Origin: Sphingomonas cremea | Lineage (GTDB): Bacteria; Pseudomonadota; Alphaproteobacteria; Sphingomonadales; Sphingomonadaceae | Assembly: GCF_021502585.1 (NCBI RefSeq) | Contig: NZ_JAKFGM010000001.1 | Location: 868,001-932,000, forward strand | Direction: 5' to 3' | Length of the DNA stretch: 64,000 nt | Part shown: piece by piece, positions 40,171-40,323 of the stretch | Layout: each line of letters begins with the position of its first letter | Numbering within the stretch: position 1 is the first letter of the stretch | Made by a program: the position numbers and the translations under genes | Notes under the pieces: model-generated | Database searches by the model: none | What the model was told of the DNA's origin: nothing | The model's input: the letters and a program-made list of their open reading frames with translations, nothing else

Positions 40171-40323
40171 GATTCAGGCCGGACTCGCGGTCAAGGCGGG
40201 CGTAACCATGGCCGATCTGCGAAAGGATGAGAACAAAAGGAATCCGCCGGATTCCAAACACCAGATGTTGAGTCTACGGCGCTCGGTGAGACTCAATCCC
40301 TAGTGGTGTGACTCGAAAGACTC
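40171..40323. promoter_or_regulatory. Dense, phased array of GANTC methylation sites upstream of ccrM
   Basis: Eight GANTC sites start at 40171, 40182, 40240, 40250, 40270, 40290, 40310 and 40319. The last six are 10, 20, 20, 20 and 9 bp apart, close to whole helical turns. Chance would give well under one site in this length. GGAATCC and GGATTCC form a perfect inverted repeat (40239-40255), and TTGAGTC with GACTCAA another (40268-40296). The array lies in the rnhB-ccrM gap, where the ccrM promoter should be. Confidence 0.75.

Follow-up and report, generated by a model that had tools for sequence, protein, structure and literature searches.

Why should the gap in front of a DNA methyltransferase gene be crowded with that enzyme's own target sites, and what might read them? 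The alphaproteobacterial cell cycle depends centrally on when CcrM acts, and the familiar ccrM promoter, that of Caulobacter, has two GANTC sites. In the window, by which we mean the whole 64,000-nucleotide stretch of DNA analysed here, ccrM (38999-40135, minus strand, 378 aa) is separated by only 196 bp from its upstream neighbour rnhB (40332-40952, minus strand), which has no part in the mechanism proposed below. A site listing returns the eight GANTC that a first-pass annotation had reported in this gap, at the same positions: they start at 40171, 40182, 40240, 40250, 40270, 40290, 40310 and 40319. The annotation had called their density far above chance while assuming one site per 256 bp; the rate measured in the host's own genome is about half of that (973 sites in 464 kb, or 2.10 per kb, counted in the window and in 20 sampled 20-kb stretches of a 2.55-Mb genome), and at this rate the Poisson probability of at least eight sites in 196 bp is 1.4e-8, which excludes chance as the source of the array. 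GANTC is depleted across the window as a whole (132 observed against 303 expected from shuffles), and at least five sites within 90 bp occur at just two places in the 464 kb, the rnhB-ccrM gap and an apparent oriC. The latter packs eight GANTC into 114 bp in front of a hemE-like gene (L196:13873-13990, G000:C2:273873-273990), together with an AT-rich tail and DnaA-box-like words; with genes named by inspection, this cluster is probably the chromosomal origin.

The array can be followed through the relatives of this strain, the named close ones being Sphingomicrobium and Sphingomonas; its own genus is represented by 70 further species in the collection searched. We compared 171 ccrM upstreams, namely the window and L008-L177, which came from 30 loci returned by the search and 60 fetched regions (a subset of the listed genomes) plus the best 80 of 590; dropping L008, which is the window itself, and three near-duplicates leaves 167, 147 of them from Sphingomonadaceae and 20 from other families. 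A dyad formed by two boxes, B and C, is present in 128 of the 167, and the array is kept in most of the sampled Sphingomonadaceae, including those in which rnhB is far away. The order toward ccrM is site A (40319-40323 in the window, about -39 bp from the dyad centre), with site A' 9 bp further on in 35 loci (40310-40314, about -30), then box B, box C, an element D and a block P. Box B ends in TTGAGTC and is followed after 19-20 bp by box C, which starts with GACTCAA; the corresponding GANTC sites B and C of the window (40290-40294 and 40270-40274) overlap the inner halves of the two boxes. Element D (GACTCCTTTCGTTC) stands 19 or 30-31 bp beyond C in relatives, and block P (CTTGACcgcGAgTC...TGACTC) about 87 bp beyond it, 88 bp in the window. 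A GANTC at 40250-40254 occupies the nearer D position in the window (D19, about +30), and element D itself (GGATTCCTTTTGTTC, 40231-40245, minus strand, recognised by its conservation) carries the GANTC at 40240-40244 that occupies the farther one (D30, about +40). Where these sites are present, even the free base is fixed: G in 126 of 126 A sites and 119 of 119 B sites, C in 118 of 118 C sites. The expectation that relatives would keep sites and spacing along with the promoter is borne out in most of them and fails in some Sphingomonas, where sites have been lost.

Several features of this region deserve mention in their own right. Element D is strongly conserved, and its position differs by one helix turn between clades, with a single change on a tree of CcrM proteins (107 loci with full CcrM, built by a quick method with no mixture; C-P class assigned in 80 loci, C-D class in 69, the central site in 88); we know of no protein that binds it. 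A DnaA box (TGTGGATAA) sits in the B-C spacer of eight Sphingomonas loci (L108, L116, L118, L135, L143, L144, L148 and L157). Box B falls below threshold in L116, L135, L144 and L157 and is in register in the other four; in L108, L118 and L143 it is in register without its GANTC, so the geometry of the boxes can outlast the methylation site. CtrA-like TTAACC half sites are seen by eye at ccrM in many relatives, and no clear CtrA site is seen in the ccrM upstream of the window.

Both inverted repeats that the first-pass annotation described are present, one at 40239-40255 (GGAATCC-GCC-GGATTCC) and one, found by reading the sequence, with its arms TTGAGTCT...AGACTCAA at 40268-40275 and 40289-40296; an automated search at its settings listed neither. 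Such repeats might end rnhB transcription as an intrinsic terminator or form a hairpin in its mRNA, and the GGAATCC/GGATTCC repeat followed by TTTTGTT does score as terminator-like on the minus strand. However, rnhB lies more than 450 nt upstream or was not found in 40 of the 128 dyad loci, and there the dyad is still at ccrM, which argues that the block belongs to ccrM; in 31 of the 128 the B site is inside rnhB, and by eye relatives with one D site lack the stem. The block tracks ccrM and not rnhB, so that for the family as a whole we regard a terminator or hairpin as largely refuted and give it hardly any weight.

The regular spacing of the sites is real and conserved. In the 128 dyad loci, GANTC centres fall at about -40/-39, -30, -10, 0, +10, +29 and +40 relative to the dyad centre, and none falls at +20 or -20, the positions of the outer box halves. 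With sites B and C left out, a period of 9.9 bp fits best (R 0.82); at 10.5 bp R falls to 0.27, and strict phasing at that period is rejected for the array. The helical phasing that had been claimed from one sequence therefore stands, with a period of 9.9 bp in 128 relatives. The accompanying claim of a one-face array survives roughly, for relaxed B-DNA, and not strictly, because the six sites span 79 bp, enough for the phase to drift by roughly half a turn. It is important to note that coherent phasing by itself does not set GANTC apart, since three other words of the same shape, where they occur in conserved words, reach R(10) values of 0.60-0.68. What stands out is the number of GANTC together with their phase: the array holds 4.15 per locus, against 1.19 for the next word of the same shape, AGNCT.

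Is it the GANTC itself that is kept, or the longer words that contain it? The symmetry at +30 and -30 and at +40 and -40 is carried by flanking words that are unlike each other. A more direct indication comes from the central site, which is absent from the window and present in 31 of the 128 B-C spacers against 4.5 expected from shuffles. It is confined to offsets 8-12 from B in 21 dissimilar spacers, its free base is A in 7, T in 9, C in 5 and G in 10 cases, and its presence changes 15 times on the CcrM tree. CGNCG and GCNGC are also frequent in these spacers (28 and 24 of 128), as GC-rich DNA would give, the shuffle comparison having been made for GANTC only. Because the central sites recur with any free base, GANTC itself seems to be under selection in these sequences. 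These recurrences, and the presence of gcrA in the genome, are what one would expect if the array were read by GcrA, CcrM or another methylation-counting oligomer, the boxes being either incidental or the sensor's own. That reading makes no prediction of the CWCAA...TTGWG palindromes, of their match to boxes at nrdA described below, or of the fixed free base at A, B and C, and we consider it unlikely.

The phasing extends beyond the array. Distances from C to block P fall into three classes, 76-77, 86-89 and 97-99 bp (means 76.5, 87.25 and 98.0), which differ by steps of about 10.75 bp, and none of the 118 loci that have both the B-C dyad and block P is off these modes. At a looser threshold 121 of 123 loci fall in the three modes; the exceptions are L125 at 119, where the match to C is weak, and L081 at 120, which is from another family. 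The class changes 8 times on the tree of 107 CcrM proteins. The array is coupled by whole helical turns to a block that resembles a promoter.

Block P would be the ccrM promoter. In the window it has a TTGACC at 40189-40194 (minus strand) as putative -35, assigned from the conservation of the block and by resemblance, and two GANTC found by site listing and in relatives: P1 (40182-40186), between the putative -35 and -10, and P2 (40171-40175), just upstream of the putative -10. The two positions are held by GANTC in nearly all of the 118 loci, at 0/+1 in 105 (0 to +2) and at +11 in 117. A scan with the sigma70 consensus called no promoter in 40100-40400, where no good -10 was seen. The link to GcrA proposed in the first-pass annotation is strengthened in that this downstream pair lies at the position expected of a putative GcrA/sigma70 promoter and that a gcrA gene is found in the genome (E 1.9e-39). 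In Caulobacter, a GANTC at a place like that in block P is reported to mark one timing class, and 11 of 96 start sites have more than one GANTC within 50 bp (PMC4287350).

What, then, occupies the centre of the array? NrdR is a dATP/ATP-sensing regulator of ribonucleotide reductase genes, and boxes B and C of the window resemble its consensus; they were therefore tested against independent data from nrdA promoters. A box pair 31-32 bp apart was found in 23 of 30 nrdA upstreams from the own genome and relatives, and these 23 pairs, all from relatives, make up the matrix; the own pair was found separately, because automated start finding passed over several loci, the own nrdA (L210) among them, and a pair is visible in some of these when they are looked at in another way. 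Applied to ccrM, the matrix picks B/C as the best pair in 134 of the 147 sampled Sphingomonadaceae upstreams and a pair elsewhere in 13. In the window the pair scores 31.8, whereas the highest value among 940 background windows is 14.0 and 0 of 399,020 positions reach the window's score. When 500,531 bases of the host genome, part of them in overlapping stretches, are ranked by the boxes only, nrdA comes first with 32.1, ccrM second with 31.8, and the next place has 13.5. It is this ranking, and the choice of B/C by a matrix made from nrdA, that make the core of the array look like a pair of NrdR boxes, here called putative: box 1 (B, CCACTAGGGATTGAGT) at 40291-40306 and box 2 (C, ACTCAACATCTGGTGT) at 40258-40273, both on the minus strand and both located by the nrdA-promoter matrix and by a profile. 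The C4/G13 pair is present in both and kept in 127 of 128 C boxes and 128 of 128 B boxes. The window boxes are separated by a 17-bp spacer, with 33 bp between their starts and likewise between their centres, or about three helix turns; across the 134 loci the spacing is 33 bp in 110, 32 in 20, 31 in 3 and 30 in 1.

A profile of 23 nrdA pairs with their spacer (R1, aligned without L227 and with the own L210), run unfiltered over the window, has exactly the two boxes as its two best matches, each of them weak by itself (E 0.48 and 0.71). The match has its limits. In the whole genome R1 matched nrdA and one weak other place and not ccrM, and in a scan of 41 genomes from the genus it gave one match each in 37 and none at ccrM; as this profile has an nrdA-specific G-rich spacer and 31-32 bp spacing, the miss tests the profile and not the definition of the family. 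A search of the own genome for the exact pattern CWCAANATNTTGWG found nothing, the window boxes deviating from it. Among 79 loci from other genera, 14 have a pair score below 15, one of them Sphingomonas melonis (L129) with -1.0. A G-run is conserved in the spacer of the nrdA boxes (L210-L239) and absent at ccrM. The genome also has a second ribonucleotide-reductase-like gene (L206, G000:C1:265580-266980, 749 aa), at which no NrdR-like box pair was found in the stretch examined.

Some other dimeric regulator, such as IHF or an unnamed factor, might instead bind B and C: box C fits 12 of the 13 letters of the IHF consensus, compared by eye, and the conservation of elements A and D is left without explanation by NrdR boxes. 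The likeness to the nrdA boxes extends to sequence, pairing and spacing and far exceeds background, though, and we think such a regulator improbable; an IHF site at box C is disfavoured, the nrdA match being far stronger.

Taken together, the box pair, its kinship with the nrdA boxes, the symmetry of the flanking sites, their conservation and the slippage of the pair against the promoter by whole turns lead us to propose, with a probability of roughly 0.7 and from sequence comparison, that the region is a composite ccrM control site, in which an NrdR operator is interwoven with phased CcrM sites. High dATP would load NrdR, and the NrdR tetramer would sit on both boxes and kink the DNA, with the GANTC sites flanking its dyad symmetrically at about 0, ±10, ±30 and ±40 bp. 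Binding may lower ccrM transcription when dATP is high, or time it; held in fixed helical register with block P, the complex might act phase-dependently on the promoter, which would itself be GcrA-dependent. Since the box halves are CcrM targets, the methylation state set by CcrM and the occupancy by NrdR should affect each other. Of the earlier interpretation this keeps a conserved, promoter-coupled phasing in which GANTC seems selected. A pure methylation counter, by contrast, fails to explain the region, because its core is a putative NrdR operator, the best reading we have of it, and several of its GANTC sit in longer conserved words.

The two components could also be independent, the NrdR operator acting alone while the GANTC serve the promoter or other ends and methylation has no effect on NrdR. 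Boxes that keep their register without GANTC in L108, L118 and L143 fit this arrangement, as does the DnaA box in the B-C spacer of eight Sphingomonas loci. Nevertheless, GANTC overlaps 119 and 118 of the 128 boxes at ccrM and is absent from 22 of the 23 nrdA pairs, the remaining pair holding one in its spacer, and the central GANTC sites recur. We regard full independence as doubtful.

Boxes in the wider class bear on the same question. The class sample was drawn from 103 genomes with a match, as 29 loci and 60 fetched regions; L309 was too short and was dropped, leaving 88 loci, 2 of them from Sphingomonadaceae. The best single NrdR-like box upstream of ccrM scores at least 13 in 26 of the 88, a level reached by none of 88 controls from ccrM coding sequence and by 0.2% of shuffles, so that the link between NrdR and ccrM may reach well beyond sphingomonads. 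With a score of at least 11, such boxes precede ccrM in 30 of 86 loci of other alphaproteobacterial families, against about 2% in both controls; among these, the best boxes of L308, L261 and L243 (at -439, -366 and -331) lie upstream of the rnhB stop and are probably in coding sequence. Only 7 of the 30 end in GANTC, and the 23 without it are what an operator independent of methylation would give. Many of the strongest boxes stand without a good partner, so the two-box arrangement is not established class-wide. A 32-bp pair in 17 of 20 other-family loci of the order was set aside as evidence, as it lies inside rnhB coding sequence, and the pair matches of L248 and L267 are the same rnhB coding word. 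The conserved words concerned, ACGCAGGATATGG and GCNCTANNNCTTGTGG, stand 32 bp apart in coding sequence at the 3' end of rnhB (L078-L097), and by eye their codon choice seems constrained at third positions, GC-rich genomes included.

A bolder reading, which we offer tentatively and would not back at even odds, is that NrdR is an old regulator of alphaproteobacterial ccrM that couples the dATP pool to CcrM, and that the sphingomonads have turned its operator into a methylation-gated switch with memory. Passage of the replication fork would hemimethylate the half-sites and so alter the affinity of NrdR, NrdR occupancy would shield the half-sites from CcrM, and the phased GANTC on NrdR-bent DNA would store whether CcrM had already acted. 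If the NrdR operator at ccrM is real, the DNA precursor pool would feed directly into DNA methylation, and if its half-sites are CcrM's own targets, the arrangement is a compact feedback device. These sequences suggest that DNA supply and DNA marking may be controlled together.

The literature gives this proposal a context. In the literature searched we found no publication that joins NrdR and ccrM in this way, although the pair may be listed in RegPrecise or in the supplements of PMC5343134; in the main text of the latter the words methyltransferase and methylase are absent, and a study that describes an nrdR deletion strain of Caulobacter (PMC12186491), in which CcrM was looked for, has no mention of it. 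Work touching ccrM in Sphingomonas and Novosphingobium includes PMC8067484 and PMC6472365. In Sphingopyxis granuli, which carries the array (L142), ccrM is reported to drop 7-fold without oxygen, beyond the effect of slow growth, which shows condition-dependent control of ccrM without indicating the agent (PMC6472365). The host has an nrdR gene, whose product, with residues counted by hand, has two CxxC, D15, R17, RRRR at 26-29 and R37; residue 12 is Q and not R, arginine 12 being among the DNA-contact residues described for NrdR (PMC9110341).

Among known systems, the Caulobacter promoters controlled by GcrA and CcrM (PMC4287350, PMC7987155, PMC3667746) resemble this locus in that block P has its GANTC between the putative -35 and -10 and that gcrA and ccrM are both present. 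They differ in having few GANTC near the start, and no phased upstream block is described in the portions of those papers available to us. The ccrM genes of Caulobacter and Brucella under CtrA (PMC2877005) provide the precedent of a ccrM that is itself a regulated cell-cycle gene; unlike them, as far as that source describes them, the window has an NrdR-like pair and many GANTC. The closest likeness is to the NrdR operators of ribonucleotide reductase genes. There, NrdR requires a pair of boxes separated by whole helix turns and accepts spacers of 14-17 (or 24-27) bp (PMC12051234), the C4/G13 pair is described as critical, and bound NrdR kinks the DNA (PMC9110341). The ccrM locus has two palindromic 16-bp boxes with C4/G13, likewise an integer number of helix turns apart and of the same kind as those at the host's own nrdA (compare PMC9110341, PMC12051234). 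Boxes of ribonucleotide reductase genes usually overlap the promoter (PMC9110341), whereas those at ccrM are far upstream, 80-130 bp from block P, a putative promoter placed by resemblance, so plain blocking by NrdR would fit poorly. The target also differs, being a DNA methyltransferase, and GANTC overlaps the inner half-sites while further GANTC are phased to the dyad. NrdR operators at ribonucleotide reductase genes are known; what appears to be new here is a putative one at ccrM, with half-sites that contain GANTC.
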